Positions 2,764 through 26,964 of a DNA stretch of 33,100 bases are shown one piece after another (the first letter of the stretch is position 1; each line of letters begins with the position of its first letter). Made by a program: the position numbers and the translations under genes. The stretch lies in NCBI GenBank assembly GCA_900696625.1, contig CAADGU010000006.1:1-33100 (forward strand). The letters run 5' to 3'. The notes beneath the pieces were generated by a model that worked only from the letters and a program-made list of their open reading frames with translations, ran no database searches and was not told the DNA's origin. The DNA comes from an uncultured Chloroflexota bacterium. Lineage in GTDB: Bacteria > Chloroflexota > Anaerolineae > Promineifilales > Promineifilaceae.

Positions 2764-5700
2764 ATAGCTCCCTCAAGCTGGTATGAATGGTCTTCGATAT
2801 TGGTCACCTCCTCGATGAGTGTTGCCAGGTCGCGCAGCGTAAAGGGCTTCGTCAGGTATGCCGTAGCGCCTGCTTGCAGGCAACGTTCACGGTCGCCGGG
2901 CATGGCCAACGCCGTCAGCGCCACAATGGGTACATTAGCCGTCTGGATGCCATTATGACGAATGCGTTGAATGGCTTGCAGGCCGTCCATATCTGGCATG
3001 TGGATATCCATCAGTACCAGGTGGGGTAGTACCTGACCAATCTTCTCTAAAACTTCAACACCATTGCGCGCTAACGTCACCTCAAAACCTACATCCGCTA
3101 AATAATCTTGCAGCGCCTCGGTGATTTCTTTGTTGTCCTCAGCAAGAAGAATGCGTTTTCTTGTACTGTCTGCGACAGTAGCTAAATCTTGTGTTGGTAG
3201 TAATTTGTCGGTATCATGCTTTTTCATTTTTTCTTTCCGTTTCCAGGGCAGGCGGATAGTGACTTGCGTACCCTCATTTACAATACTATTGATTTCAATG
3301 CCGCCGCCATGTAGATCAACCAACTGGCGAACCAGTGTCAGCCCTAATCCTGTGCCTTCATATTTGCGATCCAGGCCACTATCTAGCTGCACAAAGGGCT
3401 GAAAAAGCGTGGGCATGTTGGCCGCGGCGATGCCGATACCAGTGTCGGAAACGGTAAAGGCAACGGCATTGAGGGTTATCTCTGGCTGGACGTTCAGGCA
3501 TACCTGGCCGCCGTCTGGGGTGAATTTAACCGCGTTGCTCAACAAGTTGACCAGAATTTGTTTCACGCGGCGGGAATCAGCCTCTATTTCCTTAATGTCT
3601 GGGTTTACTTCCAGAGATAAGGAAATGTTCTTGTGTTGGGCCTGCTGCTGCACCATGATCAGGCTTGATTGAGAAACTTCCTGAACGGAAACCCTGGCCA
3701 GATCTAGCGTCAGTTTGCCGGCATCAATCTTGGCAACATCGAGTATGTCGTTGATCAGCGATAGCAGATATTGGCCGCTGTTACGAATGATTTCTACGGA
3801 ACGCGCCTGTTTTTCATTTAATGGGCCGTAACGGATGTTTTGCAGCAAGTCAGTGCGCAACAAGATAGAACTGAGAGGTGTGCGCAGTTCGTGGCTCATG
3901 TTGGCCAGAAATTCATCACGGCTGCGCATGGCGCTGCTTAACCGGGTATTGGCGATGTGGAGGGCTGCGGTTCGCTCCTCCACACGATGGGACAGATCGT
4001 GGGCTTGCTGTTGTACCTGTTGGAACAAAGCGGTACGGTAAAGGGCATTGGCGGTAATGTCGGCAACGGCCGTTAATAACTGCACGTCTTGTGCCTGGAA
4101 AATTGCCTGGCGTCCAATCCAAAATGCGCCAAACTCTTGCTCTGGTACTTGTAATTGAATACTGGCTAATGCTTGAATGGGGTCCAGATCAGCCCGCATA
4201 GATGGGTCTATCCGGGCTGAAAGGTCATTGATGAGGGTGGCTTTTTCCGTTTTGTTGGGGGTGTGATGCATCCCATTAAGAACCGGCAGCCATTCCCCTT
4301 TGGCAAATGCCGGATGCCCTACCGCACATTCCAGGGTATAGGCGCCGGTGTGGGGATCCTGTTGTACCAGGGCTGCCCCATCAGCTTGAAAAATAGCTTG
4401 TAGTTCGTACAGGGTGGATAACAGTATCTCCGTGTGGTTGTTGGCCTGGCGCAGCGCCGAGGCCACACGGGCAATGGCCGCCTGTTTCTGCTGTGACCGG
4501 ACTCCTTCGCTGACGTTGCGCATGACAATACCCACGCTGTTGCCCGGCTGGTCTGGTTCATTAATGGGAAAGACATCGGTGTCTACGTATAAGATATTGT
4601 CGTTCTGGAAACGCAGGCTAAGCCGCCCCTGCCATTTTTCTTCGTCGGTGAGGGCATTTTGCACCAGCCGATTCAGGTCTACTTCGTGAATTGCGTCTGC
4701 CAGCAATTGTAACGGTTGCCCGATAACCTCCCTGGTGTCTTTGCCGGTGAGGGCAGTGAAGTAGGGGTTGGCGTAGATGATGTAGTTGTCCCGATCTACG
4801 ACGATCTGGAGTTCCGTGGCCTGTTCCACCAGGGCGGCCAACCGGGCGATTTGGACGTCGTGTTGACGGCGCTCGGTAAGGTCGCGGACTATGGCCAGTA
4901 CGGCCGTGATGCGCCCTTCGGTGTCATATTCTGGCGTTAGACGCCAATCGATATAAAAACGGCCGTACTCACTCTCATAGTAAAACTCGGCTTCCACCGG
5001 CTGCCCGGTTTGCCACACGCTCTGAAACTTTTGTTGCCATATGTCGGCAAGTTCCGGGGGAACGCCCAGGTCGCTGTATGTTTTGCCCAGATATAGTTCG
5101 GTGGGCAGGCCAGACACGGCCGTGACATTTGAGCTGACATACACATGGCGACCCTGGTTGTCAAAACGAAAAACCATATCCGGCAAATTTTCAACCAGGT
5201 TACGGAAACGGGATTCACTTTCCTGTAATGCTTTTTTCGCCTCTCGATCTTGGGTCACGTCCTGTTTGATGGCAATAAAGTGCGTAATCTCCCCGGCTTC
5301 ATTTTTCAGCGGCGTAATGGTCATTTCCTCCACATACTCTTGCCCGCCACGCCGGCGGTTGATCATCTCTCCATGCCACACTTCACCTGACTGAATTGTT
5401 CGCCAGAGATGTTGGTAGAAAGCTGGTGACTGTCGGCCAGATTTCAAGATTGTGGGAGTATTACCCACTACTTCCTCCGGCGAAAATCCGGTTAGCCTGG
5501 TGAAGGCGGCGTTGACCCAATTTATTTTTCCCCCATTGTCGGTGATGAGTACTGCATTGGCGGTGGTCATAAGCGCCGTAGATAACAGGTGCAACTGATC
5601 TTGATCCTCTCTGCGGCGCGTAATGTCTCGCGCCACAAAAATGAAATCAGCCTGCCCGGCCACAGCCCGCATGGTTGTTTCCAGCCAGACGTAATGGCCG

Positions 5701-6362
5701 TGTTTGTTCCTGACCTGGCATTCAAACAAGGGGCAGCCCGCTGCCGTATAAGCCAGACACGCCATCTCGTCAATGAGGGGGCGGTTATCGGGATGAAGCC
5801 AATCATAAATGTTCGTGTTGACCATCTCTTCCGGTGCCAGATCCAGCAGTGTGCCGCACGCCGGTGACATATACTGAATCCACCCTTCCTGATTGACACA
5901 ACCAATGAGGTCTGTGGCGTTTTCTGCCAGCAGCCGGTATTTTTGCTCACTCGCTTTTAGGGCGATATGCTGTCGCCACAGCCGGCCAGCAGCCTGTACC
6001 CGCGCCAGCATCTCGCGTGGGCTGATCGGCTTAATCAAATAATCATCTGCCCCGGCATCCAGTCCACTTATGCGGTCTGTCTCCCCAACTCTGTACCCGG
6101 AGAGCATAATAACCAGGGTATCTGGGTAAACTGTTTTAATTTGCTGGCAAAGCTCCGTGCCATCCTGATCAGGCAAATGACGGTCCAGGAGGACAATAGC
6201 GGGCTGATGGGCCGCAATACTGTTCCAGGCAGTTTTGGCGGTGGCGGCTGTGGTTACATCATGCCCCGCCTTCTCCAACAGATGTTGGTGCAGGTTGAGC
6301 TGCCAATAGTTGTCATCAACAATCAGGATGTGGAGTGGTAAATAGTTGGTTTGGGTTGTCAT
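2760..6362 (-). CDS. Hybrid kinase REC-PAS(x4)-GAF-HK-REC (1200 aa)
   Basis: Large soluble hybrid histidine kinase. Approximate domain order is REC (10-130, D60), four PAS domains between 140 and 640 (the second and third end in QDVTQ- and RDLTERR-type PAC motifs), GAF (650-800), HisKA with H824 in NMSHELRTP, HATPase (NLLSNAVKFTPDG, SDTGIGI, EGTGLGLTL) and a C-terminal REC (1080-1195, D1119 in LVLMDIHMPDMDG). Phosphate can plausibly pass from H824 to D1119. I chose the ATG at 6362 rather than an in-frame ATG at 6506. A 29-codon ORF with a strong ribosome site ends exactly here with an ATGA overlap, and the extra 48 residues do not resemble a domain. No membrane helix is visible. It is the first kinase of the 183-6448 operon. 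Confidence 0.9.
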   Translation of the reverse strand: MTTQTNYLPLHILIVDDNYWQLNLHQHLLEKAGHDVTTAATAKTAWNSIAAHQPAIVLLDRHLPDQDGTELCQQIKTVYPDTLVIMLSGYRVGETDRISGLDAGADDYLIKPISPREMLARVQAAGRLWRQHIALKASEQKYRLLAENATDLIGCVNQEGWIQYMSPACGTLLDLAPEEMVNTNIYDWLHPDNRPLIDEMACLAYTAAGCPLFECQVRNKHGHYVWLETTMRAVAGQADFIFVARDITRRREDQDQLHLLSTALMTTANAVLITDNGGKINWVNAAFTRLTGFSPEEVVGNTPTILKSGRQSPAFYQHLWRTIQSGEVWHGEMINRRRGGQEYVEEMTITPLKNEAGEITHFIAIKQDVTQDREAKKALQESESRFRNLVENLPDMVFRFDNQGRHVYVSSNVTAVSGLPTELYLGKTYSDLGVPPELADIWQQKFQSVWQTGQPVEAEFYYESEYGRFYIDWRLTPEYDTEGRITAVLAIVRDLTERRQHDVQIARLAALVEQATELQIVVDRDNYIIYANPYFTALTGKDTREVIGQPLQLLADAIHEVDLNRLVQNALTDEEKWQGRLSLRFQNDNILYVDTDVFPINEPDQPGNSVGIVMRNVSEGVRSQQKQAAIARVASALRQANNHTEILLSTLYELQAIFQADGAALVQQDPHTGAYTLECAVGHPAFAKGEWLPVLNGMHHTPNKTEKATLINDLSARIDPSMRADLDPIQALASIQLQVPEQEFGAFWIGRQAIFQAQDVQLLTAVADITANALYRTALFQQVQQQAHDLSHRVEERTAALHIANTRLSSAMRSRDEFLANMSHELRTPLSSILLRTDLLQNIRYGPLNEKQARSVEIIRNSGQYLLSLINDILDVAKIDAGKLTLDLARVSVQEVSQSSLIMVQQQAQHKNISLSLEVNPDIKEIEADSRRVKQILVNLLSNAVKFTPDGGQVCLNVQPEITLNAVAFTVSDTGIGIAAANMPTLFQPFVQLDSGLDRKYEGTGLGLTLVRQLVDLHGGGIEINSIVNEGTQVTIRLPWKRKEKMKKHDTDKLLPTQDLATVADSTRKRILLAEDNKEITEALQDYLADVGFEVTLARNGVEVLEKIGQVLPHLVLMDIHMPDMDGLQAIQRIRHNGIQTANVPIVALTALAMPGDRERCLQAGATAYLTKPFTLRDLATLIEEVTNIEDHSYQLEGAI

Positions 6363-6448
6363 TTGTGAGCGTCTGTGTCTAAATTTGAGATGATCTGATT
6401 TTCTTCCGCAAGTTCGGGCCAGGTCTGGTTTCTTACTTCGTTTGTCAT
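6359..6448 (-). CDS. 29-residue leader ORF coupled to the hybrid kinase
   Basis: Reading down the minus strand, AAAAGGAT is followed 4 bases later by an ATG at 6448-6446. The frame runs 29 codons (starting MTNEVRNQTW, ending DTDAHK) to a TGA at 6361-6359, which overlaps the kinase ATG at 6362-6360 as ATGA. The kinase start has no clear ribosome site of its own, so coupling through this small ORF is a reasonable explanation for how it is translated. The peptide is hydrophilic and acidic with no recognisable motif. It may be a pure coupling device or a small protein. Coding status is inferred only from the ribosome site and the overlap. Confidence 0.5.
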   Translation of the reverse strand: MTNEVRNQTWPELAEENQIISNLDTDAHK

Positions 6449-6598
6449 AGGGATCCTTTTCTATACAGACAAGCGCATAATCTGGTGTTACTACTCCCAA
6501 AGGCATGGAGTACCTGATAGCCAGAAGAATAATGGCTGGGGGGGATTTAGCATATCAGCAGGAATGGGAGGTCATTATCAGAGAAGAGGACAGGCAAC

Positions 6599-6617
6599 TG
6601 TCAGACAAAATCTGACA
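6599..6617. promoter_or_regulatory. Inverted repeat, putative regulator-binding site
   Basis: TGTCAGA and TCTGACA are perfect 7-base arms separated by CAAAA. The 17-mer TCAGACAAAATCTGACA at 6601-6617 matches 16 of 17 bases at 10889-10905, upstream of the NarL-type kinase. The site lies 151 bases upstream of the leader ORF start. Binding by a response regulator encoded nearby is an inference. Confidence 0.45.
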
Positions 6618-7373: not shown

Positions 7374-7400
7374 GTAGGACGATTTGGAAAATCGCCCTAC
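7374..7400. repeat. Near-perfect intercistronic hairpin
   Basis: GTAGGACGATTT (7374-7385) and AAATCGCCCTAC (7389-7400) form a 12-bp stem with one mismatch, which is a G-U pair in the minus-strand RNA, and a 3-base loop. It starts at the stop codon of the kinase gene and ends 20 bases before the regulator ATG. It could attenuate readthrough, protect mRNA ends, or be one copy of a dispersed REP-like palindrome. Confidence 0.6.
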
Positions 7401-10400
7401 AACATAGCAGTCAGCGGCGCGCTGGCATCCAGGTCGTCTGCGGTGGGCGACAAAGGAAGTTGCAGGGTGATGGTTGTGCCTTGTCCTGGCCTGCTTTTGA
7501 CAGCAGCCGAGCCTCCCAAAGCCCGGGCGCGCTCCTGAATGCCAATCAGCCCCAGAGATTTTGTGCTGTTGAGTTGGCTTTTTTTAATGCCCTGACCGTT
7601 ATCCTTCACTGTCAGGGTAAATTGGTGTGGGGACTGCTTCACCATTATTGCCACCTGGGTAGCATCGGCATGGCGCGCAATATTAGTCAGCGCTTCTTGA
7701 AAAATGCGGAAAATAGCGATGTTTGCTTCCAGACCGAGGTCAACAGGTGTTGCCGGTACATCCAGGGTGCAGGGAATACCGGCGCGCCTGCTGAAATGAT
7801 GCGCCTGCCATTCCAGTGCAGCGATCAACCCCAGGTCGTCTAACAGACCAGGCCGCAGCTCGGCCGCCAGATTCCGTACCGTATTGATGGCCTGGTCAAT
7901 CAGAGAGGCCATTTCGTTTGCCTTTTCTTGAAAACTCCCGTTTTCAGGCGGCAACCGTTTACCCAGCCAGACAACATCCATTTTCAGGGCTGTCAAAATC
8001 TGACCAAACTCGTCATGAATTTCGCGGGCAATGTGGGCGCGTTCTGCTTCGCGTGCTGTTTGCAAATAATTGGTCAGGTTGCGCAATTGCTCTTGCGACT
8101 GCCGTTCACGGTCAAGTAGCTGTGCGTTTTGAATGGCAATGGCTATTTGAGCGGCTATCGTTTCTAGTAGCTGCTGTTCGCCCGCGCCATAAGCGTGGGG
8201 GCGTGAGGTTTCCACGTTGATGACGCCAAAGACAATTTCGCCGGCCAGCAGGGGGGCACAAAGTTCTGATTGAATTCCTTCGTGCAGGGGGTAGTAACGG
8301 CCGTCAGCCGACACATTATTCAGGTAAACACTCTGCCCATGCTGAGCTACCCAACCAACGATGCCCTGACCCAACCGCATTTCCACTGATCGTTTGCCAG
8401 CGGCTGCGGCCGCCGGGCCGGGTGTGGTATAGACGAAGGGAACGAGACGATCTGGCTCTTCAATGAGCAGGATGCTGCAATACTCGTAGTCGAAGGTTTC
8501 ACCGAGCACCTGGGTGATTTCTTGGGCCAACTGTTTAGATGTTAACACGCGCTGCAACCGCTGGCCTAGCTGGTGAATGGTGCTAAGTTCCACCACCCGC
8601 CGTTCCAGCCGGGAAACCAGGTTGGCGTTCTGTAAGGCCAGCGCGATTTGCCCGGCTAACCCCTGGGCAATGAACACTTCCTCTTGCGTAAATATCTCTT
8701 CCTGATTGCGGCCCAGATTGAATGAACCGATCAGCTTTCCTTGCACCAGCAGCGGCAGGCTGAGAACGATACGAATGCCTTCTTTTTGATAAAGCTGCTG
8801 CTGCATGGTGGTTGGCCGGGAAATTTTGGTTAAGTTGTAAAGTATTGGCTCACCGGCTGCCAATTGCTGGCGGTCTTCGGCCGGTAAATGGGTGCGCGCG
8901 CCGGGCAAAACGGCCGTTTCCCCATCTCGATGAACTGCATATACCGTACCTTCTCCCGTTTCTTCGTCTAATAACATGACGCTGCTGCGTGAGCAGGCGA
9001 TCAGGTCGCGCACCAATCCCAGTGACTTGTACAGCACCTCTTCAGCGGGGCGAAATGCCAGAATTTCCTGGTCAATCTGGTGCAAGATGCTTAGCTGGTG
9101 TACTCGCTGCCGTAAATCCTCTTCTGCCTGGTGGCGGGCCACCATCAGGCCGATAAGATTTGCCGTCTGCTGTAAAAAGGCGATCTCCTGATAGGTCAAT
9201 TCCGGCCGCGACGCCAGAATTGCCAGGACGCCGAAAGTATCCTGACGGCCGTGTACAACCTGGGCCGCGCCGCTGGCAATACCTGATGCGCGCAGCCATT
9301 CATCCGCGGGAAAGGGCGCCCACTGCCCCGCCGCCGTGGCCAGCCCATCTTCCGCCTGCAAAGCGGCCGTGAACAAAGAGGGGTCGCGGACAGAAATGCT
9401 CTTTTCTTTTGCCGCCGCGGCCCAAGCGCCAGCAGCAAAACCCACCTGTAATGTCTCGTGCGAGCGTTTCCATTCCCATAGTAGAGTACAGGCAAGATTG
9501 AGGGTGTTGGTGAGACGATTTACACTGGTTTGTAACAGCGATGCTAAATCATGCCCGGTCAAACCCAATTCACCAAGAACGGCCAACAGGGTTTGCCGCT
9601 CTGCCTGCGCTGCCAGGGCCAGAGTCACCTCTTCTCGCTCGGTCACATCACGGGCAATACCCTCTACCGCCACCAGTTGACCCGTTTCATCATATACCCG
9701 CGTATTGCGCTGTTCCGTCCAAATAATCCGTCCATCTTTGTGTTGCCAGCGCAGCAGCAGGGGTCTGCCAGCCATATTCGCTTCGGCATAAGAGTTCAGC
9801 AGGTGGCGGTCATCGTGATAGATCAACTTCCGGCCCAGCTCCGGGTCGGCGTAATACTCTTCTGGAGTGTAACCGGTAATATTCGCCGCTGCCGGACTGA
9901 CGTATTCGAAACCAGGCGTGGGCCGCAGTCGGTAGCGATAAACGATGTCTTGTGCCTGTTCGGCCAGCGTACGAAACCGCTCTTCACTTTGGCGCAGGGC
10001 GATCTGCTCCTGCTGGAGTTTGCCATAGTGGTAAGCGTTTTCCAAAGCGGCCGGCAGTTCAAAGAGATAGCTGGTATGTTTCACCAGATAATCAGCAGCG
10101 CCCAGGTTCAGCGCCTTAACGGCCACTTCTTCGCTGCCCTGCCCAGTGACTAGAATAACGGGCAGTGTCAAACGACGTTCCTGTCGTATGATTTTGAGAG
10201 CATCAAGAGCATTAAGACCAGGCAAACTGTAGTCTAGAAGAAGGACATCATAAGCGCAGCCATCTTCTGGGGTAGCTGGCAGCCGGGCCAGGGCGCTGTC
10301 GGCGTCATGGGCAATGTCCAGGCGGATGTGCGGCGCATGATGGGAGAAATGGTGGCGGGTGAGGTCTATATCGGCGGCGTTGTCTTCAGCGTAGAGGACG

Positions 10401-10804
10401 CGCAGGGGGCGACTGTGGCGCGTGGCGGCAACCTGATGGCGCTGGATGACGGCGCTAACCAGGGTTGGTAGGTGGGTGAAGTAGTTGAGTTGTTTGACAA
10501 CGTATTCATCGGCGCCAGTTTTAAGGGCAGCTACGGCCGTTTCTTCGCTGCCGCCGCCCGTTAGGACGATGATGGGAAACGACCATCCGGCTGCCCGTAG
10601 TTCTGCCAGGAAATCCAATCCGCTGCCATCTGGCAGGGAAACATCGAGCAGTAACGCCTCATAAATGTGGCCTTCCGCCAGCCGGTTGCGGGCCGCCTGG
10701 AGGGTCGTTACAGCATCCAGTTCATATTCAGGTAGTTCCCGAAATAGTTCGCGCCGTGTCAGTTCTGCATCCTGCACATTGTCTTCAACATACAGTATTT
10801 TCAT
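7397..10804 (-). CDS. NarL-type sensor kinase REC-REC-PAS-GAF(x3)-HisKA_3 (1135 aa)
   Basis: Soluble sensor kinase. Two N-terminal receivers (1-122 with D54 in LLLDVSLPDGSG, and about 137-255 with LLLDYSLPG) are followed by a PAS/PAC domain (about 275-390, ending GIARDVTEREE), three GAF-like domains (about 400-560, 575-740, 745-900), a HisKA_3 dimerisation helix with H930 in AREIHDEFGQ, and an HATPase domain (ALTNIARHA, VKDNGQGI, SLGLIGIQERA). This core is the NarX/DesK-type class. The start chosen is the ATG at 10804 (MKILYVEDN), which begins the receiver exactly; in-frame ATG 10825 and GTG 10870 are alternatives. No membrane segments are seen. It is co-transcribed with its likely partner at 6721-7353. 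Two receivers ahead of a kinase suggest that it takes input from other kinases. Confidence 0.92.
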   Translation of the reverse strand: MKILYVEDNVQDAELTRRELFRELPEYELDAVTTLQAARNRLAEGHIYEALLLDVSLPDGSGLDFLAELRAAGWSFPIIVLTGGGSEETAVAALKTGADEYVVKQLNYFTHLPTLVSAVIQRHQVAATRHSRPLRVLYAEDNAADIDLTRHHFSHHAPHIRLDIAHDADSALARLPATPEDGCAYDVLLLDYSLPGLNALDALKIIRQERRLTLPVILVTGQGSEEVAVKALNLGAADYLVKHTSYLFELPAALENAYHYGKLQQEQIALRQSEERFRTLAEQAQDIVYRYRLRPTPGFEYVSPAAANITGYTPEEYYADPELGRKLIYHDDRHLLNSYAEANMAGRPLLLRWQHKDGRIIWTEQRNTRVYDETGQLVAVEGIARDVTEREEVTLALAAQAERQTLLAVLGELGLTGHDLASLLQTSVNRLTNTLNLACTLLWEWKRSHETLQVGFAAGAWAAAAKEKSISVRDPSLFTAALQAEDGLATAAGQWAPFPADEWLRASGIASGAAQVVHGRQDTFGVLAILASRPELTYQEIAFLQQTANLIGLMVARHQAEEDLRQRVHQLSILHQIDQEILAFRPAEEVLYKSLGLVRDLIACSRSSVMLLDEETGEGTVYAVHRDGETAVLPGARTHLPAEDRQQLAAGEPILYNLTKISRPTTMQQQLYQKEGIRIVLSLPLLVQGKLIGSFNLGRNQEEIFTQEEVFIAQGLAGQIALALQNANLVSRLERRVVELSTIHQLGQRLQRVLTSKQLAQEITQVLGETFDYEYCSILLIEEPDRLVPFVYTTPGPAAAAAGKRSVEMRLGQGIVGWVAQHGQSVYLNNVSADGRYYPLHEGIQSELCAPLLAGEIVFGVINVETSRPHAYGAGEQQLLETIAAQIAIAIQNAQLLDRERQSQEQLRNLTNYLQTAREAERAHIAREIHDEFGQILTALKMDVVWLGKRLPPENGSFQEKANEMASLIDQAINTVRNLAAELRPGLLDDLGLIAALEWQAHHFSRRAGIPCTLDVPATPVDLGLEANIAIFRIFQEALTNIARHADATQVAIMVKQSPHQFTLTVKDNGQGIKKSQLNSTKSLGLIGIQERARALGGSAAVKSRPGQGTTITLQLPLSPTADDLDASAPLTAML

Positions 10805-11063
10805 CACTACACCCGTTGGAGCCATCTGGTTCTTGAAAAAGGGATGGCTAATGCCAACTAATCTTACCACAAGATAGTACCGTAGTTATCAGACAAAATC
10901 GGACAAACCTGTCGGATAGGTCTTATAGCCAATACCTGCTTTGGCTGATAGGTGTAATGGGCATACTGTTTTATGCTTCGTCCATAGCGTGAACGGCCGT
11001 AAAGTTTAAGCCGCATGATTCTAAAAAACAATATCTATTGCTCTAACAGAACAGGAGTATGTC
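10805..11063. other. Divergent intergenic region between kinase and polysaccharide operons
   Basis: About 260 bases separate the divergent kinase gene (minus) and first glycosyltransferase (plus). It must hold promoters for both directions, but I could not pick convincing -35/-10 pairs. It contains the tandem decamers at 10888-10917 and one of only two intergenic ACGGCCGT copies (10993-11000). The ribosome site AGGAG (11053-11057) for the plus-strand gene lies at the right end. Confidence 0.6.
10888..10917. promoter_or_regulatory. Tandem 10-bp sites, candidate operator
   Basis: ATCAGACAAA (10888-10897) and ATCGGACAAA (10898-10907) are adjacent direct repeats, 9 of 10 identical, spaced by exactly one helical turn. 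They are followed by an inverted relative, ATCCGACAGG on the minus strand (10917-10908). The shared half-site is ATCNGACA. The cluster is 84-113 bases upstream of the kinase ATG and about 150 upstream of the first polysaccharide gene, a fit position for a regulator acting on either or both. Confidence 0.5.
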
Positions 11064-11981
11064 ATGTTACAAGCACTTGCCCCTTACAAGATTGTTGCTG
11101 TTGTCCCCGCCTTTAACGAAGAGAGGTTCATCGGCAGCGTGATACTTAAAACGAAAAAACACGTTGACCAGGTCATTGTGGTGGATGATGGTTCCAATGA
11201 CGCCACTGCCGACATTGCCCGTGCGGCCGGCGCTATTCTGGTGGCCCATGACAAAAACCAGGGCAAAGGTGAGGCGCTAAACAATGGCCTGCGGGCAGCG
11301 CGCGAACTGGGCGCTGACGTGGTGGTGGTTTTAGACGGGGATGGGCAGCATTTACCCGAAGAGATGTCCCTTGTAATAGCTCCGGTGCTGCAAAATGAGG
11401 CGGATATTGTTGTTGGCTCGCGTTACATTCACAGTGGGTGTGCCGTGCCGCGCCATCGCATTTTGGGGCATTGGTTTTTTAACTTGCTTACCAGTATGGC
11501 TTCTGGCGTCCATGTCACCGATTCACAAAGTGGCTTCCGTGCTTTTTCGCGCCATGCTTTGGAAGTCCTTAACTTCCAATCGGCCGGGTTTTCGGTGGAG
11601 TCAGAAATGCAGTTTATTGCCCACGAAAAACGGCTGCGGGTGAAAGAAGTGCCCATCACCATTCGCTATCTGGACCCTCCCAAACGTTCTGTCCTGGGAC
11701 AGGGTCTTAACGTCTTAAACGGGGTACTGCGCCTGGTGGGCCAGTATCGGCCGTTGCTTTTCTTTGGCCCTTTGGCGGCTTTAGCCATTCTGGTGGGATT
11801 GGGGATGGGGCTTATGATCATTGATATTTATCAACGCACCACCAATCTGGCGGTGGGGTATGCGTTGATCAGTGTATTGCTGTTTATCATTGGCACGGTC
11901 ACTTTTTCCACTGGCGTGATCCTTCATTCCGTGCGCGGCCTGTTATTAGACACACTCCAGGTCCGCAGCCAAACACCGTAA
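11064..11981 (+). CDS. DPM1-like family 2 glycosyltransferase (305 aa)
   Basis: Inverting GT2 of the polyprenyl-phosphate-hexose synthase type. The GT-A domain covers about 5-230: VVPAFNEE near the N-terminus, the nucleotide-binding VVDDGSND, and LDGDGQH carrying the DxD-type metal site. GSRY and DSQSGFRAF are characteristic of this subfamily. Two C-terminal hydrophobic segments (about 228-250 and 262-290) anchor it in the membrane. Its expected role is to transfer a sugar from a nucleotide sugar to a polyprenyl phosphate, giving a donor for membrane GT-C enzymes such as the one proposed at 17683. It is the first gene of the plus-strand operon, with AGGAG six bases before the ATG. The sugar identity cannot be inferred. 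Confidence 0.88.
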   Translation: MLQALAPYKIVAVVPAFNEERFIGSVILKTKKHVDQVIVVDDGSNDATADIARAAGAILVAHDKNQGKGEALNNGLRAARELGADVVVVLDGDGQHLPEEMSLVIAPVLQNEADIVVGSRYIHSGCAVPRHRILGHWFFNLLTSMASGVHVTDSQSGFRAFSRHALEVLNFQSAGFSVESEMQFIAHEKRLRVKEVPITIRYLDPPKRSVLGQGLNVLNGVLRLVGQYRPLLFFGPLAALAILVGLGMGLMIIDIYQRTTNLAVGYALISVLLFIIGTVTFSTGVILHSVRGLLLDTLQVRSQTP

Positions 11982-11986
11982 AACGC

Positions 11987-13087
11987 ATGAGCAGCTTTAT
12001 GATGATCCCCCTGGTGCATGAGCGTGTGACTGAACCGGCCATTACGGTATTGGCTTCGGTTATCATCGTCAACTACAACGGCCGTTTCCATCTCCCCCGC
12101 TGTCTGGACAGCCTGTTGGCTGACGATATGACGGAGGTGGAAATCATTGTCGTAGACAACGCTTCCGGCGATGGTAGCCCTGACCTGATTGCCCGCGATT
12201 ACCCCCAAGTACGGCTCATCCGCAGCCGGGAAAACCTGGGTTTTGGCGGGGCCAACAACCTGGCGGCCGCTCACGCCCAGGGAAGTTATCTGGCCTTTTT
12301 AAACCCAGATACGGTGGTGACTACCGGCTGGCTGGGCGCACTCATTACGGCGCTGGAAACGCAGTCCCAGGCTGGGCTGGCGACCTCCCAGCTTTTGCTG
12401 TTGGACCAGCCAGAGCGCATCAACGCGGCCGGGAATGAGATGCACCTGACGGGGTTGACGCTGTGCCGGGGGCTGGGTGATGAGGCAGTTTGTTGGCAGC
12501 AGGGGGATAGGGTGACGGCCGTTTCCGGTGCAGCTTTTGTCATGCGGCGGTCACTCTTTGCCGAATTGGGCGGTTTTGACGCCGATTTTTTCATGTATTT
12601 TGAGGATACAGATCTCTCTTTACGCACCCGGCTGGCAGGTTATGAATGCCTCTACGTGCCACGCTCTGTGGTATACCATGATTACCAACTGCGCTTCGGT
12701 CCGCGCAAAATCTATTACGAAGAGCGCAATCGCTACGTAACACTGCTCAAGACACTGCGCTGGCCCACGCTACTGCTGCTGCTGCCGGTATGGCTGCTGG
12801 CCGAGGTTATCACCTGGGGTTTTGTCCTGTCGCAAGACCGGGCCAACTGGCGCAATAAGGTGCGGGCATATGGGGCTGTCTGGCGGCAACGGCCGTTTAT
12901 TCAGCAAAAACGGCGGCAGATACAGGCCACTCGCCGGGTTGCCGACCACGTATTGTTGCGAGACTTACCATATCGGCTGGCATTTGCACAGACGGGCGAA
13001 GGATTTGCACCCAAACTGGCGCACTATCTGTTCACCCCCCTGTTTTGGCTGCAAAGCCATCTGTCAAATTTTTTGGTGAGGTGGTAA
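11987..13087 (+). CDS. Family 2 glycosyltransferase, rhamnosyltransferase-like (366 aa)
   Basis: GT2 of the WbbL/rhamnosyltransferase-like group, with SVIIVNYNG near the N-terminus, IIVVDNASGDGS, FLNPDT as the DxD-equivalent, and FEDTDLSLR near the acceptor site. A hydrophobic stretch at about 262-282 (LLLLLPVWLLAEVITWGFVL) may lie at the membrane, followed by a basic tail. It probably adds a sugar to the growing lipid-linked glycan on the cytoplasmic face. The gene starts 5 bases after the preceding stop. Several ATG codons lie near the start (also 11999 and 12002), so the exact start is uncertain. Its stop codon is immediately followed by the ATG of the next gene. Confidence 0.85.
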   Translation: MSSFMMIPLVHERVTEPAITVLASVIIVNYNGRFHLPRCLDSLLADDMTEVEIIVVDNASGDGSPDLIARDYPQVRLIRSRENLGFGGANNLAAAHAQGSYLAFLNPDTVVTTGWLGALITALETQSQAGLATSQLLLLDQPERINAAGNEMHLTGLTLCRGLGDEAVCWQQGDRVTAVSGAAFVMRRSLFAELGGFDADFFMYFEDTDLSLRTRLAGYECLYVPRSVVYHDYQLRFGPRKIYYEERNRYVTLLKTLRWPTLLLLLPVWLLAEVITWGFVLSQDRANWRNKVRAYGAVWRQRPFIQQKRRQIQATRRVADHVLLRDLPYRLAFAQTGEGFAPKLAHYLFTPLFWLQSHLSNFLVRW

Positions 13088-13537
13088 ATGAAAATCTGCC
13101 TTGTCTGCTCTCACGGAGGGCATCTCACGGAAACCATGCAGATCCTCGAAGCCTTTGCCGGGCATGAACTCATTTTCGCCACGTATCATAGCTCCCGCGA
13201 AGCCGAAGTGGCGTCCCTTGGCCGTGCCTATTTTACGGAAAACATTGGCGCCAGCGCCCGACGTATGTTTTTAGCCCTGTTTTGGGCTTTGCGCGTTCTA
13301 CGCTGTGAGAAACCAGACCTCATTCTCAGTCTGGGCGCGGAAATTGCGCTGCCCTTCATCTACTGGGGCAAGCTGTTGGGGATCAAAACCGTTTTTATCG
13401 AAAGTTGGTGCCGGGTTGAGGATTTATCGAAAACAGGACGGTTAGTTTATCCCATTGTGGACGTTTTTTGGGTGCAGTGGCCCCAATTGCTCGCTGTGTG
13501 TGGTCCCAAGGCACAATACAAAGGAGCAGTCATTTGA
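13088..13537 (+). CDS. pssD: PssD/Alg14-like glycosyltransferase subunit (149 aa)
   Basis: Resembles the Alg14/PssD/EpsF-type subunit that anchors and recruits the catalytic partner of a two-part GT28-like glycosyltransferase. Visible family marks are CSHGGHLTE at the N-terminus, LSLGAEIALPF, the FIESWCRVEDLSKTGRLVYP block and VQWPQLL near the C-terminus. The hydrophobic segment around 60-72 may associate with the membrane. The length is normal for the family. It abuts the preceding gene (TAA then ATG) and overlaps the following PssE-like gene by 4 bases. In the family, the D/E pair transfers a sugar such as glucuronate, glucose or GlcNAc onto a lipid-linked acceptor; the sugar here is unknown. 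Confidence 0.85.
   Translation: MKICLVCSHGGHLTETMQILEAFAGHELIFATYHSSREAEVASLGRAYFTENIGASARRMFLALFWALRVLRCEKPDLILSLGAEIALPFIYWGKLLGIKTVFIESWCRVEDLSKTGRLVYPIVDVFWVQWPQLLAVCGPKAQYKGAVI
13521..13526 (+). promoter_or_regulatory. Ribosome site that sets a TTG start for the PssE-like gene
   Basis: AAGGAG lies 7 bases before TTG at 13534-13536, which overlaps the upstream TGA as TTGA. No ATG is available in the right place: the nearest in-frame ATG (13468) would add 22 residues that do not match the family. Confidence 0.75.
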
Positions 13538-14040
13538 TACTCGTAACCGTTGGCACACACAATCAGGGCTTTAATCGACTGATACAGCCCATGGATGAAC
13601 TGGCGGCGGAATTAGACCAGACTGTGGTCATCCAGCGGGGCAACTCCACTTACGAGCCACAACACGCCGGGCATTTCCAATTGACCAGCAGTGAGAAGAT
13701 GGCTCAACTGACACAGGCGGCCGCCGTCATCGTCACCCATGCCGCAGCCGGGGCTGTCATCCTTGCCTTGCAACAAGGTAAGCCGCTCATCGTGGTGCCC
13801 CGACTGCAACAATTTGGAGAACACCTGGATGACCATCAACTACAACTGGCAAAAGCTCTGGAGAATCAAGGCAAAGTAACGGTTGTGTATGAGCCGTCCA
13901 CGCTGAGGTTGCGTGTGGCGCTGGCACAGGCCAGCGCCGCCAACAAACAACAGTCACAAGGCGTGGCGCAACTGGTGTCGGCATTACGCCATTTACTAAA
14001 TGACAACTTAGTACAGGTGGCGTATCAACTGGAGGGTTAA
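13534..14040 (+). CDS. pssE: PssE/Alg13-like glycosyltransferase catalytic subunit (168 aa)
   Basis: Corresponds to the C-terminal, nucleotide-sugar-binding half of GT28 enzymes (Alg13/PssE). It begins ILVTVGTHNQGFNRL right after the TTG initiator, which is the canonical family N-terminus. It also has VIVTHAAAGAVILALQQGKPLIVVPR, the donor-binding region, and a GEHLDDHQ block. The TTG at 13534 is chosen because it matches the family start, has AAGGAG at good spacing and overlaps the previous stop by 4 bases. With the PssD-like protein it should form a membrane-bound heterodimeric transferase. The next gene follows after 2 bases, its ribosome site GGAGGG lying within this gene's last codons. 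Confidence 0.88.
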   Translation: MILVTVGTHNQGFNRLIQPMDELAAELDQTVVIQRGNSTYEPQHAGHFQLTSSEKMAQLTQAAAVIVTHAAAGAVILALQQGKPLIVVPRLQQFGEHLDDHQLQLAKALENQGKVTVVYEPSTLRLRVALAQASAANKQQSQGVAQLVSALRHLLNDNLVQVAYQLEG

Positions 14041-14042
14041 AG

Positions 14043-15182
14043 ATGCAAATTTGTATGATCACGTCTTCGCCTATGCCGCCCAAAGAGGGGATTGGTTTCT
14101 ATGTCTGGAATCTGTCCAAACAACTAGCCAATTTGGGGCATCAAGTTCAGATTATTACACGCGGTCAGGCGCATCCGCTTCGCCGTGAGGTTATAGACGG
14201 CGTCGTCATCTGGCGGCCAACTTTTTTGCCTGTCTACCCTTTTCATGTGCATGTGCATCGCCTATTTGTTGACAGGCTGTTGCATGAGTTGAGCGCCGAT
14301 ATTGACCTGATTCACTTACATACACCTCTGGTGGGACTGCCAAATGTCAAGAAGCCCATGGTCGTCACCGTGCATACACCGATGAAGGCAGATGTTAATT
14401 CGGTACGGGCCAATCATTGGCTGGGTATATTAACCAAACTCCAGGGGCCAATTAGTTACAAGATCGAGCAGCAGCTCTTTAGTCGGGCGCATAAAATGAC
14501 GGCCGTTTCCCACAGTGTTGCCGCCGAATTACAGGACTATGGCTTGAAGCCTGAAAATGTGGCAGTTTTGGGGAATGGCGCTGATACGGATATCTTTTCC
14601 CCAGGGGAAATGCCTCAGAAGGCTGAACCTTATTTTTTGACGGTTGGCCGTCTGGCCCCACGTAAGGGATTGGAAGATCTCATCCACTGTGCCCGTATCG
14701 TTGTCAACAAATTTCCAGCGGTGCGCTTTTTGATCGCCGGTTCGGGGCCATTGGAAAACAGCCTGAGGGCTGAAATAAAGAAGCAGGGCTTAGATGCCCA
14801 CGTACAGCTTGTGGGGCACGTGGCGGACCGGGGCGAATTGGTCAATTTATACCGGGGGGCGGTGGCCTACGTTCATGCGGCCCATTATGAAGGTTTGCCT
14901 ACGGTGTTGCTAGAGGCAATGGCTTGTGGTCGGCCGGCCGTGGCCACGGCCGTTAGCGGCGCCCTGGATGTGATTGAAGATGGTCATAATGGACTTCTGG
15001 TACCGGTCAGTCAACCGTCACAAATGGCTACGGCCGTGATGCGTTTGCTGCAACAACCAGATTTGGCCCAAAGCCTGGCTGCGCAGGCGCGACAGACCAT
15101 CGAAGAGAAGTATTCCTGGCGCGTTGTTAGTCGCCATTATGCTGAACAATACAACTCGTTGTTAGCTGGAGGAACCGCTTGA
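14043..15182 (+). CDS. Family 4 glycosyltransferase (379 aa)
   Basis: Retaining GT-B fold enzyme. The N-terminal Rossmann half begins MQICMITSSPMPPKEGIGFYV, with the glycine-rich acceptor loop and HLHTPL. The C-terminal half has FLTVGRLAPRKGLEDLI, FLIAGSGP and the donor-binding EGLPTVLLEAMACGRPAVAT with the EX7E-type glutamates. The length is typical. It should transfer an activated sugar in the cytoplasm during repeat-unit assembly. The ribosome site GGAGGG is 6 bases upstream. The stop overlaps the next start as TTGA. It carries three ACGGCCGT copies, all read as Thr-Ala-Val. Confidence 0.9.
   Translation: MQICMITSSPMPPKEGIGFYVWNLSKQLANLGHQVQIITRGQAHPLRREVIDGVVIWRPTFLPVYPFHVHVHRLFVDRLLHELSADIDLIHLHTPLVGLPNVKKPMVVTVHTPMKADVNSVRANHWLGILTKLQGPISYKIEQQLFSRAHKMTAVSHSVAAELQDYGLKPENVAVLGNGADTDIFSPGEMPQKAEPYFLTVGRLAPRKGLEDLIHCARIVVNKFPAVRFLIAGSGPLENSLRAEIKKQGLDAHVQLVGHVADRGELVNLYRGAVAYVHAAHYEGLPTVLLEAMACGRPAVATAVSGALDVIEDGHNGLLVPVSQPSQMATAVMRLLQQPDLAQSLAAQARQTIEEKYSWRVVSRHYAEQYNSLLAGGTA
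15168..15172 (+). promoter_or_regulatory. Ribosome site for a TTG-initiated glycosyltransferase
   Basis: GGAGG lies 6 bases upstream of TTG at 15179-15181, which overlaps the previous TGA. This is the second TTGA junction in the operon and fixes the start of the downstream gene. Confidence 0.7.
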
Positions 15183-16384
15183 GCGAGAAACAGTATTCCA
15201 TCTGCCTGGTTACCGGCAATTTTACGCAACACAACAGGCGTTTACAGCCCTGGCGTTATTTATCTGAAGCAGCCTGCCAGTTAGCTGCACTCGGCCACAC
15301 GGTGGCCATTGTCACCAATGGCGCATCACCGGATTTTGTGCCGCCCTTAGAGAATGTGGCCATACATCGTCTGGCAACGGTCAGTAATCCCTGGTGGCGG
15401 CCCAATATGGCCTTGCAACAAACCATCCAACAGCTAAAACCGGATGTTATTTTCTGGCACGTGGGCCTGACCAGCTTCTTCCACCAGCAGTTGAGCCATT
15501 CCGGCGCTGCGCCCATTGTGGGGATATTGACCAGCCCTATTTATCATCTGTCCGAGTTATCCCTGATTGGCACAAAAAAGCTTATTTCTGGATTTGGCCT
15601 GACGTTTGTGCATATCCTGGGAACGTTGGCTCCCAAATGGCTTTTACGTCACCTGGCGCGTAAAAATCGCCAGCTTCAATTGCTGGTGGCGCAGACGGAA
15701 AGCACACGTCAGCGGCTCCTTAGCACAGGGGTATGGGCAAAGAGGGTGGAGGTGATAAAACCGGGTGTTGATGCGATATGGTCGCAGGATCATACCAATG
15801 CCGGCAGTCACCTTCGTACTCACTTAGGCTACCATTCGGCCGACAAAGTGGTCTTGTATTTTGGCTCACCGGCACCTTTGCGTGGCCTGCACACATTGAT
15901 TCAAGCGGTACAGCAGGCAGCAACGGCCGTGCCCTCCCTCAAATTGCTCATCTTAAGCCGCCGCCATGCTGACGAGCTAATGCAAGAAGACGCCCAAATG
16001 CGCCACTTATTGGTTCACACTGCTGTAGAGAAGCAGGTTCAGGTAATAAGCGGTTTTTTAGAGCCAGAAGATCTGGCTACATACCTGGCGGCTGCCGATA
16101 TTGTGGCTCTTCCTTTTGAACTGGTGCCATCAGATGCCCCATTGAGTCTGCTAGAGGCTAAAGCATCAGGCAAACCGGTCGTGACCTCAACTGCGGCCTG
16201 CCTGCCCGAATTAGTGGCTGACAGTCCTCATTACCTGGCGCAACCGGCCGATGTCACCTCTCTGGCAAATGCGCTTATACAAGCTGCCAATGATTTGGAA
16301 GGTAATAAGTTTCGACCGTATCCCACAGGGCGTACCTGGCAGCAAATGGGATCAGAATGGCTACACCTGATACAGACATTATGA
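15179..16384 (+). CDS. Family 4 glycosyltransferase (401 aa)
   Basis: GT-B fold enzyme related to GT4. The N-terminal half starts with ICLVTGNFTQHNRR and has CQLAALGHTVAIVTNG. The C-terminal half has VVLYFGSPAPLRGLHTLI, LKLLILSRR, and a donor site APLSLLEAKASGKPVVTS with the second conserved glutamate. A moderately hydrophobic segment near 132-152 may lie on the membrane. It starts at a TTG overlapping the upstream stop and is 4-base coupled at its 3' end (ATGA) to the kinase-like gene. It probably adds one sugar of the repeat unit; donor and linkage are unknown. Confidence 0.85.
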   Translation: MSEKQYSICLVTGNFTQHNRRLQPWRYLSEAACQLAALGHTVAIVTNGASPDFVPPLENVAIHRLATVSNPWWRPNMALQQTIQQLKPDVIFWHVGLTSFFHQQLSHSGAAPIVGILTSPIYHLSELSLIGTKKLISGFGLTFVHILGTLAPKWLLRHLARKNRQLQLLVAQTESTRQRLLSTGVWAKRVEVIKPGVDAIWSQDHTNAGSHLRTHLGYHSADKVVLYFGSPAPLRGLHTLIQAVQQAATAVPSLKLLILSRRHADELMQEDAQMRHLLVHTAVEKQVQVISGFLEPEDLATYLAAADIVALPFELVPSDAPLSLLEAKASGKPVVTSTAACLPELVADSPHYLAQPADVTSLANALIQAANDLEGNKFRPYPTGRTWQQMGSEWLHLIQTL

Positions 16385-17043
16385 TAATGAGACAAAGCCA
16401 CCCTCTGTTTATTTATATCACCGGCTGTGACGGTACAGGCAAAAGCACTCAGGCCAACCTGCTGCGCCAGAGAATGGCCGGTGAGGGGATTGAGACATCT
16501 CATTTGTGGCTGCGCTTTCCCTTTCTGTTCAGCCTGCCGTTGTTGGCCTATGCCCGGTGGCGTGGCTACAGCTGGTATGAAAAAAACGGTAATGTACGTC
16601 ATGGGTACTGGGACTTTCGCCAATCCCATTTATTACGTCTCCTGTTTCCCTGGTTTATGTTGTGCGATGCCACTGTTGCCACCATCCATCAAATCGTTAT
16701 TCCCCAATGGTCAGGAAAAGCCATCGTTTGTGAACGGTTTGTGCTTGATATGCTCGTTGATATGTCCCTGGCCTTTGGCGAAAAGATGCATCGTACCTTG
16801 CCTGGCAAATTATTCTTACGCCTGCTGCCTGCCCATACCCAGGTTGTCATCCTTTATCTGGACGAGGCTACCACCCGTGAGCGACGCGCCGACCTGGTTT
16901 GGGATAAACGCCTGGCAGAGCGCCTGGCAGTATTTAACCATCTGGCGGCCGATTTATCGTTACCGCACTTTTCTAGCTTAATACCTGTTGCCGATTTAAA
17001 CGACAATATCTGGCAGAGGGTTGGAGTAACACATGAGCGTTAA
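16381..17043 (+). CDS. Thymidylate-kinase-like P-loop protein (220 aa)
   Basis: Belongs to the thymidylate kinase superfamily, with a Walker A motif GCDGTGKST (G15-T23 from the chosen start), an ERF motif in IVCERFVLDMLVD corresponding to the DR(Y/F) nucleotide-binding element, and an arginine-rich lid (RERRADLVWDKRL). The 27-75 region is unusually aromatic and hydrophobic compared with housekeeping Tmk. The chosen ATG at 16381 overlaps the previous stop as ATGA; an upstream ATG at 16357 is possible but less likely. It overlaps the next gene by 11 bases. The operon context argues against a DNA-precursor role. Kinases of this fold recur in polysaccharide loci, where the substrate is not established; a lipid or sugar phosphate is one possibility. 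Confidence 0.8.
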   Translation: MIMRQSHPLFIYITGCDGTGKSTQANLLRQRMAGEGIETSHLWLRFPFLFSLPLLAYARWRGYSWYEKNGNVRHGYWDFRQSHLLRLLFPWFMLCDATVATIHQIVIPQWSGKAIVCERFVLDMLVDMSLAFGEKMHRTLPGKLFLRLLPAHTQVVILYLDEATTRERRADLVWDKRLAERLAVFNHLAADLSLPHFSSLIPVADLNDNIWQRVGVTHER

Positions 17044-17653
17044 AGGGTACGCCAAATTTGAGTCAGCCTGGGTTCGCTATTTGTTGCAAAAGCCGTTTAC
17101 GGCCGTTGCCATGCATTGGATGTTTCAAAGCCTGTTTTATATGGACAAAACAGAACGGCGATTCAAGCTAGGTTTAGATGTGGTACTCACTATTCTTTTT
17201 TGGTTACTTTTTCAGCGATGGCTGTCCTGGTTCGTGGCAATCCTTGCCGCATTCTTAATTTCACACACACTCAACTTCTTGTTGAACGGCCACTTGTGGG
17301 GAGTCCTAAAGCATTATGGATATGTCGAGAACAGTTACGAAACGTTCTCGGCATATGCTGCTTGTTTGGCAGTAAGAACAAAAACGAACCAGAGTATCGT
17401 TTACGCCGCAGTTTACGGGAGTTGTGTCAGAGAGGAGTGGCATCCTGCATCGGATCTTGATGTCAGGCTTGTTCGCAACAAAGGATTGGTGAATGGACTT
17501 AAAGCGTGCTGGTATTGTGCAAGGGAGAGAACTCGCGCGCTTCTCTATGGATTTCCACTAGACATTTATCTGTTGGATGACGTGAAAGGTCTGGATCATT
17601 TGCGTTTGGGTGAAATGCCAACAGTTCTACTTGATAGAACTCAGAAGAGTTAG
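17033..17653 (+). CDS. Membrane-anchored nucleotidyltransferase-fold protein (206 aa)
   Basis: Two hydrophobic segments (about 48-61 and 63-84) precede a C-terminal nucleotidyltransferase domain of the MNT/pol-beta type: VYGSCVREEWHPASDLDVRLV, where G129-S130 and the D141/D143 pair form the GS...DxD active site. It is therefore expected to transfer a nucleoside monophosphate (or be a degenerate relative) at the inner membrane surface. GGAG precedes the ATG, and the gene overlaps the kinase-like gene by 11 bases, so the two are probably translated together and may act in one step. No HEPN partner is present, so a toxin-antitoxin reading is unlikely. The acceptor molecule is unknown. Confidence 0.7.
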   Translation: MSVKGYAKFESAWVRYLLQKPFTAVAMHWMFQSLFYMDKTERRFKLGLDVVLTILFWLLFQRWLSWFVAILAAFLISHTLNFLLNGHLWGVLKHYGYVENSYETFSAYAACLAVRTKTNQSIVYAAVYGSCVREEWHPASDLDVRLVRNKGLVNGLKACWYCARERTRALLYGFPLDIYLLDDVKGLDHLRLGEMPTVLLDRTQKS

Positions 17654-17682
17654 TGACCAGATACTCCATTCAGCGTTGACGT

Positions 17683-19509
17683 ATGCGCAAGATCCCGCAG
17701 ATCTGTACGATTTATGAACTTATGATAGCCATGAAAAACTACCTGAAGAAAGCACATCCTCAAGTGCATCTCTTTTGCGCTTTCAGCCTTTTTATCTTTC
17801 TGTCTATTTGGACGCTTTTAAGTGCTGTCTGGGCCAACAGGGCATATCAGGACTCCTGGATACTTGAGAGTTTACTTATCCCTTTGTTACTTACCGTGTT
17901 GTGTTTCATTGTGGTTGTCTATATCAGTTCAAATATTCAGATTGTTACTACAGCCACAATGATATTAACCTTCTTGTTCTTTGCGCTCCCGTCTCTTAAG
18001 TATATTGCACCTTACGGTTCTGCCATTGATGTTTCCGCACACATGTCTTTGATTCGACACATTGCCGATACCGGACAGGTTGATCCATCAAATGTTTATC
18101 AATATACGACGGGCTTTCATGTCTTACCGGCAATTTTGGGCAGATTATCCGGTGGAGACCCAGAACGCTTTGTTAAGGTCATCCCAGCATTGTTGGGGAG
18201 TTTAGTACCAGCTATTTACTGTCTTGTCCTGAGACGGATTGAAGCCCCAACTGATTTAAATAAAATAATCATTGTACTCTCTGGGTTGAGTCTCCCCCCT
18301 TTATATTCCCTCAATGGAACCACCTTCACAACACCGTTGTTTGTCTTTTTCTTTTGCTTGCTTCTGATCCGTTATTTTGAAAGTCCATGGATTCAACGCA
18401 ACGCTTTTGCTCTTACCGTGCTTCTATTACTCGTGGGGGCAACCATCATCATTTGGCATCCTTCTAGTTCATTGGTGTTGGTTTTCATAACCATTACATC
18501 AGGCCTTCTGGCGCGCGCATTGGGTTTTTCAAATGATAAAGGGGAAGCTCTTTGGCGGATTGGATTGCTCATTCTTGTGGGCACATTTTCATACTGGATG
18601 TTCAAAGCCGATCTGGTATGGGAACATTTTGTGCGAAACCTGTATTTGACCCTGCAATCAGAACTTACGCCTGATCTTGTTCCTAAGCGTTTATTTGAAC
18701 TCTCTTTTGTGGAGCAGATACAAATTGGCCTCTACACTCATGTACGAGATGTCCTATTCATAGGGATGGGCAGCCTTGGATTCTTGTTGCAAATGAGGGC
18801 AAGCAGTCATGCCAATAGAGGCAACAGAGTAGGACGGCTTTTGGCTATTTTATGGTTATCCAGCCTGCTGATGGTTACGGTGATTTTTGCCGCTGGATTC
18901 GGGTCGCAAGGGTATCGGCGGTTTCTAAATTACATTGTGGTATTTAGCCCGTGGTTAGCAGGATTTGGTATGTGGAGTAGTATGAAGGTCTTTTCAGCTC
19001 AAGTACCAAAGGCAAAAACAACATTCATGGCTGCCGGATCATTGTTAATAATCATTTTGATATCCGGTGTGCAGTTGTTTCCCTATCAGCCGGCTTTACC
19101 GGCCATATCTGTAACTGAAAACAACGATATGGGCACACCTGTCATGTGGATGCATCAGGTGAATACTTCCTATCAGTATCAGATGCTTGACTACGCGCTT
19201 CACCAACTGCCTGAAAATGTGAAGCTAACTGCGGATTATGTTGGGCAACGGCAAAGCGGGATATTTTTTAACAGGCAGGCGCAGTCCCGCATACAACGCC
19301 TGGAGACGCCACTTGCCGGATCTGTGGTCCTTTTACACTGGCCGGGACAGGCCGGCCCCTATTTTGAGCAGGCCGGTTCCCGATCTATAGACGCAATCAG
19401 TAATTGGCGTAGTTATCCTGGGATCATGACGATCTATGACAATGGCGGTTCCTTTATCCTATTTGATCCTATCGGGGTAGTTAAAGTTTCAAGAGTGGAG
19501 AGTGAGTAA
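17683..19509 (+). CDS. Polytopic membrane protein, putative GT-C glycosyltransferase (608 aa)
   Basis: At least ten hydrophobic segments fill residues 30-465 (for example 33-50, 62-84, 86-104, 215-228, 240-258, 262-275, 290-305, 355-370, 385-405 and 447-465), followed by a soluble tail of about 145 residues. After the third segment an extracytoplasmic loop reads GSAIDVSAHMSLIRHI, which places an acidic residue and a histidine as in the first loop of GT-C enzymes. I infer a polyprenyl-phosphate-sugar-dependent transferase, which would fit the DPM1-like gene at 11064, but no family is firmly recognised. The start is uncertain: ATGs at 17683, 17722 and 17731 are possible, and none has a clear ribosome site. 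It is AT-richer than the upstream genes. A polymerase is an alternative function. Confidence 0.6.
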   Translation: MRKIPQICTIYELMIAMKNYLKKAHPQVHLFCAFSLFIFLSIWTLLSAVWANRAYQDSWILESLLIPLLLTVLCFIVVVYISSNIQIVTTATMILTFLFFALPSLKYIAPYGSAIDVSAHMSLIRHIADTGQVDPSNVYQYTTGFHVLPAILGRLSGGDPERFVKVIPALLGSLVPAIYCLVLRRIEAPTDLNKIIIVLSGLSLPPLYSLNGTTFTTPLFVFFFCLLLIRYFESPWIQRNAFALTVLLLLVGATIIIWHPSSSLVLVFITITSGLLARALGFSNDKGEALWRIGLLILVGTFSYWMFKADLVWEHFVRNLYLTLQSELTPDLVPKRLFELSFVEQIQIGLYTHVRDVLFIGMGSLGFLLQMRASSHANRGNRVGRLLAILWLSSLLMVTVIFAAGFGSQGYRRFLNYIVVFSPWLAGFGMWSSMKVFSAQVPKAKTTFMAAGSLLIIILISGVQLFPYQPALPAISVTENNDMGTPVMWMHQVNTSYQYQMLDYALHQLPENVKLTADYVGQRQSGIFFNRQAQSRIQRLETPLAGSVVLLHWPGQAGPYFEQAGSRSIDAISNWRSYPGIMTIYDNGGSFILFDPIGVVKVSRVESE

Positions 19510-19514
19510 AAAAC

Positions 19515-20252: not shown

Positions 20253-20300
20253 AGTGACAGATTTAACCAATGTAGTATATGTCGAGAATGTAGGCTAACA

Positions 20301-21572: not shown

Positions 21573-21578
21573 AACACC

Positions 21579-21603
21579 TGGTGACAGGCCAATGAAGTCA
21601 CCA
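21579..21603 (+). repeat. Intercistronic inverted repeat
   Basis: TGGTGAC (21579-21585) and GTCACCA (21597-21603) form a perfect 7-bp stem with an 11-base loop, 7 bases after the flippase stop. A T-run (21622-21627) follows 18 bases later, too far for a standard terminator. It may be a weak attenuator or coincidental. Confidence 0.35.
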
Positions 21604-21646
21604 CATATTGGTATTTGAAAGTTTTTTCGTGAAAGGATGAAGATTT

Positions 21647-23623: not shown

Positions 23624-23628
23624 CGGTT

Positions 23629-23684: not shown

Positions 23685-23700
23685 AAGGTGTGAGATCCAA

Positions 23701-26915: not shown

Positions 26916-26964
26916 CAGCGATAAAAAGCGACCGAAGTGCGCGTTTGTTCAAAAGAGGTTTTAC

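Follow-up and report, generated by a model that had tools for sequence, protein, structure and literature searches.

Candidate operators of a NarL-family response regulator bracket its kinase-regulator gene pair in an uncultured Chloroflexota bacterium

Among described response-regulator operators, the GacA/UvrY/SirA box is the closest to the sites analyzed here. According to PMC4682653, UvrY recognises an inverted repeat of 18 nt ahead of csrB and csrC, and the GacA/UvrY/SirA box is given as TGTAAGNNNNNNCTTACA (TGTAAGN6CTTACA); this box and our two sites have in common palindromic TGTNRG half-sites and a reader, in our case a probable one, of the NarL/FixJ family. The spacer differs, being 6 bp in the GacA/UvrY box (an 18-bp palindrome) and 7 bp at both of our sites (19 bp), and so do the targets, which are small RNAs for UvrY and probably signalling genes beside the regulator at our locus. 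At csrB, the same paper (PMC4682653) places the centre of the upstream UvrY site near -182, whereas our site would overlap the -35 element. No csrB/rsmZ-type small RNA matched Rfam at the gathering score within the window, by which we mean the whole 33,100-nt stretch of DNA that was analyzed, from an uncultured Chloroflexota bacterium. The nearest solved full-length relatives of our regulator by sequence are NarL (1a04; E 4e-34), DevR (3c3w), and VraR (5hev), whose binding sequences are not known to resemble the palindrome in the window, and a search of one paper library by sequence string and by topic listed nothing on this operator. To our knowledge, few operators are known in the large two-component networks of uncultured bacteria; here, the operator of one regulator and its probable targets appear to be readable from sequence, and the consensus can be searched for elsewhere.

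A palindrome pair in a two-component locus

The window contains two related 19-bp palindromes (Table 1). The first lies upstream of a hybrid kinase operon starting near 6362-6506 and has perfect 7-bp arms around a 5-bp centre, and its half-sites fit the TGTNRG / CYNACA of the family consensus, TGTNRG-N7-CYNACA. The second has imperfect arms and lies upstream of a kinase-regulator pair, between that pair and a divergent polysaccharide operon. An extra inverted half-site beside the second copy, which is matched neither at 6599 nor in the sister genome (G002), is possibly an accessory half-site. The regulator encoded between the palindromes belongs to the NarL/FixJ family, with a receiver (PF00072, E 6e-29) and a LuxR-type GerE domain (PF00196, E 7e-16), and it adjoins a HisKA_3-type kinase, as it also does in a more distant relative, G036. 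The start of this kinase was set at ATG 10804 by comparison with G002, the mechanical open reading frame beginning at GTG 10870.

Table 1. Coordinates of the features discussed, as positions in the window
Feature	Position	Strand	Remarks
Hybrid kinase with N-terminal receiver	2760..6506	-	Follows the 6599 site; by comparison with G002, probably starts at about 6362
GATAAT, -10-like hexamer	6574..6579	-	19 nt past the edge of the 6599 palindrome; GATAAC in G002
Candidate palindromic operator, 19 bp	6599..6617	-	TGTCAGACAAAATCTGACA; TGTCAGATTTTGTCTGACA in the direction of transcription
NarL/FixJ-family response regulator, 210 aa	6721..7353	-	Receiver + GerE (Pfam); proposed binder
Hybrid kinase	7397..10804	-	Receiver, PAS, GAF, HisKA_3, and ATPase (HATPase_c) domains; likely partner of the regulator
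Polysaccharide cluster, about 16.4 kb	10820..27213	+	Absent from this place in G002
TAAGAT, -10-like hexamer	10861..10866	-	20 nt past the second site, kinase side; weak, 4/6
Second palindrome copy	10887..10905	.	TATCAGACAAAATCGGACA; 2 mismatches versus the 6599-6617 site
Extra inverted half-site	10910..10916	-	TGTCGGA on the + strand; beside the second copy
TATAGC, -10-like hexamer	10924..10929	+	18 nt past the second site, polysaccharide side; weak, 4/6

The first-pass annotation had described the second site as tandem decamers followed by an inverted relative and sharing a 17-base segment with the region upstream of the other kinase operon. These readings were accurate to the letter: ATCAGACAAA and ATCGGACAAA are each present a single time, at 10888 and 10898 respectively, in direct 10-bp register; the inverted half-site is present at 10910; and TCAGACAAAATCGGACA (10889-10905) agrees with TCAGACAAAATCTGACA (6601-6617) at 16 of 17 positions. 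The decamer did not stand as the basic unit. Where the site is conserved in relatives, it takes the form of the 19-bp palindrome, and a tandem 10-bp array for a helical-turn binder was rejected as the unit; the tandem look arises because TCNGACA half-sites sit 10 bp apart when read along one strand. The weaker relative claimed at 31975-31987 likewise turned out to be a single half-site, differing from the full site at 6 of 19 positions and not kept in G002. This half-site borders a GC-rich, hairpin-like stretch at about 31990-32110, which is intergenic, is built of inverted repeats, and has a mobile- or REP-like look; no matching stretch aligned at its place in G002.

Occurrence of the palindrome in the genome and beside related regulators

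Since the pattern was read from the window, its presence there is by construction, and the informative part is its absence elsewhere together with its conservation. In the window, ATCNGACAAA with up to one mismatch gave 20 matches against 7.63 expected from shuffles, only 2 of them exact, and the 19-mer TGTCAGACAAAATCTGACA with up to three mismatches gave 2 against 0.01 expected. Across the 6,949,307 bases of the bacterium's own genome, the strict pattern TCNGACANNNTCNGACA matched exactly twice (reversed control, 0), and both matches bracket the kinase-NarL regulator pair. Strict patterns revealed no wider regulon in this genome beyond the two sites, and looser ones stayed at the control level, as with GTCNGACAAANTCNGAC at up to one mismatch (4 matches against 4 in the control). 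The same genome encodes at least 52 scored homologues of our regulator, so that a different NarL-family protein, whether a paralogue or a global regulator, could in principle control these kinase operons through the sites. A regulator with other targets should, however, show more than two sites in the genome, and the site follows relatives of our own regulator in several phyla; we regard this reading as unlikely.

The first-pass annotation had also proposed conservation in related genomes as a check, and in the sister genome the 6599 site is fully conserved. The G002 regulator is 95% identical to ours, and the site beside it (L037:8863-8881) is identical to the 6599 site at 19 of 19 positions, within an alignable block (window 6552-6626) that is 83% identical; the remaining intergenic region around the 6599 site had no local match in G002. 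Also conserved in this block are two other runs: CTTCTCTGATAA, containing the -10-like element, and ATTCCTGCTGATAT, close to where the transcript is expected to start. That the likeness of the two window sites arose by chance and was picked out by an eye seeking repeats is extremely improbable: looser forms of the pattern do stay at the control level genome-wide, but perfect conservation within diverged DNA and a held-out site at the nearest more distant orthologue (G036, below) both speak against it.

A scan of named genomes yielded 74 loci with a regulator relative, of which 73, including the sister genome as L061, were retained after a partial 27% match (L134) was dropped. With the sister left out, a consensus from the window only gave 10 matches at up to four mismatches, 4 of them within 700 bp of the regulator, against 3 and 0 in the reversed control (such near DNA makes up 9.5% of the total); at up to five mismatches, the counts were 32 and 9 against 18 and 3. 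The generalised TGTNRG-N7-CYNACA gave 11 matches in the 73 loci, 9 of them within 700 bp of the regulator (reversed control, 1 and 1), and a leave-one-out matrix scan placed 10 of the 73 loci at or above the 99th percentile of 560 far blocks; because some of the tested loci had suggested the generalised pattern, these two results are not independent of it. Near matches numbered 9 with a spacer of 7 bp, 2 with a spacer of 6 bp, and at most 2 with any other spacer (3-6, 8-12). Three relatives carry the site 245-294 bp upstream of the regulator.

Cleaner tests than these are the window-only consensus and two held-out scans of 28 loci each, with a matrix fixed from 11 sites; in these two scans and in the leave-one-out scan alike, the matrix was partly built from sites picked for nearness to a regulator. 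On the Anaerolineae side, G036 scored 22.7 and all other loci 10.3 or less. G036 belongs to another family of the same order. Its regulator shares 56% identity with ours, more than any other relative from beyond the genus, and the site TGTAGGACAACATCCGACA begins 43 bp after the stop codon of that regulator gene. The second scan covered the order to which G099 belongs, here taken to be Burkholderiales (G099 is the source of the Gallionella locus L071); 150 genomes were searched and 30 loci fetched, which with L213 (G098) made 31 scored. With the three known-site loci left out, 4 of 28 loci scored 13.9 or more (L205, L203, L207, and L208), all with the site downstream of the regulator, and the highest reversed-control score among the 31 was 11.9. 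Most relatives of the regulator carry no recognisable site, falling below the cut in 63 of the 73 named loci, 27 of 28 on the Anaerolineae side, and 24 of 28 in the order of G099. On a tree of 74 regulators, site-bearing rows number 12 and need at least seven changes, so that they do not form one clade there, although the starred branches force only two.

Enrichment was not seen in every search. A 17-mer pattern across 98 relatives (20 matches against 26 in the control) and TGTNRGACAAANNCYNACA across 301 Chloroflexota genomes (6 against 11) were not enriched, and matches of GTCAGACAAAATCGGACC in G006 and G027 were set aside, no NarL-type regulator being recognised by eye among the open reading frames beside the G006 match. 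In 300 genomes of the order of G099, TGTNRGACAAANNCYNACA gave 17 matches in 14 genomes against 6 control matches; 3 sites are next to the regulator, and 5 adjoin flhD-flhC, which encode the flagellar master regulator (L163, L164, L169, L170, and L177; site at 1501-1519; FlhD and FlhC identified by Pfam in L177). No NarL regulator of this kind lies within 1.5 kb of the box at these five loci, which lends something to the reading with a different NarL-family regulator; the box is therefore not private to our regulator across bacteria, and other proteins may read it. At our locus, the combination of genome-wide uniqueness, sister identity, the held-out G036 site, and adjacency in several phyla supports well the proposal, first made in the first-pass annotation, that the 6721-7353 regulator is the binder, and we consider it probable, with good confidence, that this NarL-family regulator, whose gene lies between the two palindromes, uses both of them as operators.

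Signalling genes commonly follow the sites. At 6599, the next gene is the hybrid kinase that carries an N-terminal receiver. In relatives, it is often a stand-alone receiver, as in L062, L071, L129, G036, L167, L203, and L141 (another site of the L129 genome); in L207 and L173, the gene is a CHASE3/PAS sensor and a chemoreceptor, respectively. A receiver-like gene lies within 1.8 kb downstream of the regulator in 7 of the 73 loci, and 4 of these 7 have the site, one of the four being the sister genome, where the gene is the hybrid kinase. Among 42 further loci, such a gene follows the regulator in 7, of which 5 have the site. L206 and L210 have the receiver and no site, which counts against a strict rule. 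As a separate observation, a locus in another genome of the family (L048; G014:C98:15903-15988) carries four copies of TCAGACATTTTCTGACA, 23 bp apart.

Promoter geometry and predicted signal flow

Beside both window sites lie -10-like hexamers (Table 1). Single matches of this kind are each weak; the likeness to TATAAT, summed over nine sites oriented to the next gene, peaks 19 nt past the palindrome (26; next, 22). Taken as -10 elements, the hexamers would put the centre of the palindrome near -41/-42, where activators in contact with the -35 region are located, and this geometry suggests activation from about -41/-42 with the palindrome overlapping -35. It also bears on the very unlikely reading of the 6599 palindrome as an RNA hairpin or terminator of the kinase-regulator operon, with the 10887 copy a coincidence. 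The position about 100 bp past the regulator stop codon and the perfect 7-bp arms would suit such an element; against it stand the recurrence of the -10-like element and its spacing, a second copy that lies upstream of genes with imperfect arms, the upstream position of the site in the three relatives mentioned above, and the lack of any Rfam match in the window.

The box at 6599 and 10887 is best read as the regulator's own operator, a GacA/UvrY-like element with a 7-bp instead of a 6-bp spacer. A signal reaching the HisKA_3 hybrid kinase would lead to phosphorylation of the regulator, and the phosphorylated dimer would bind TGTNRG-N7-CYNACA, overlapping -35, and aid transcription start by RNA polymerase. 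From the 6599 site, the regulator would switch on the hybrid kinase operon that follows, a feed-forward step into more signalling capacity, and from the 10887 site it would drive its own kinase-regulator pair.

The polysaccharide junction and the origin of the second site

By comparison with the sister genome, the second site falls on a junction, because a 16.4-kb segment of the window is missing there. Only 18 bp separate the end of the G002 kinase gene that corresponds to window 27214-29253 from the counterpart of the 7397-10804 kinase gene, and homology between the window and G002 stops at 10819 and resumes at 27234. The intervening cluster encodes glycosyltransferases, a Polysacc_synt protein, and a Wzy_C/TPR protein. 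The second site is missing from G002 because the upstream kinase gene and the kinase-regulator pair are just 18 bp apart in that genome, without an intervening cluster. Both breakpoints are at gene ends, and no direct repeat of 9 bp or more was found between the two cluster ends.

Insertion in the window lineage rather than deletion in G002 is favoured, because the other five genomes of the genus match the cluster DNA in short pieces at most and the 18-bp spacing in G002 is operon-like. Deletion in G002 is the less probable alternative; no close regulator orthologue was found in the other four genomes of the genus (best E 1.5e-45, about 40%), so these genomes cannot polarise the event. With insertion as the preferred reading, the likeliest origin of the second site is its emergence or recruitment as the cluster split the operon. 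Most simply, the insertion would have cut the kinase-regulator pair off from its operon promoter, and a promoter with this operator would have taken over, in which case the 10887 site may have replaced the promoter of the split operon. The sister comparison would accordingly provide a possible example of an operator that appeared at the point where an inserted cluster divided an operon. Control of the divergent polysaccharide operon by the same regulator, also proposed in the first-pass annotation, is a weak possibility that draws on the TATAGC hexamer facing that operon, and conservation offers no check on it because G002 lacks the cluster at this place.

What goes beyond an ordinary operator here, judging from these comparisons, is the apparent recurrence of the order regulator, operator, signalling gene in distant phyla, together with a second copy where the operon appears to have been split. 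We tentatively propose a module, widespread and undescribed, of a HisKA_3 kinase, a NarL-type regulator, and a 19-bp TGTNRG-N7-CYNACA operator that would drive either a sensor or a stand-alone receiver of the G[AS]DYF.DK type. The regulator would in this way feed forward on the signalling component that comes next, and the module would be present at least in Chloroflexota, Gemmatimonadota, Pseudomonadota, and the BMS3Abin03 lineage. At our locus, under the same tentative proposal, cluster insertion would have split the operon, and a new operator copy would have restored expression of the regulator and made it self-activating, perhaps capturing the polysaccharide genes.

Two further features of the cluster were observed. 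Window 17683-19509 encodes a 608-aa protein with no Pfam match at E 1e-5, and where two cluster genes meet (window about 23619-23682), there is a dispersed repeat of about 65 bp, roughly 73-80% identical across many copies in the genus, most of them in G001.
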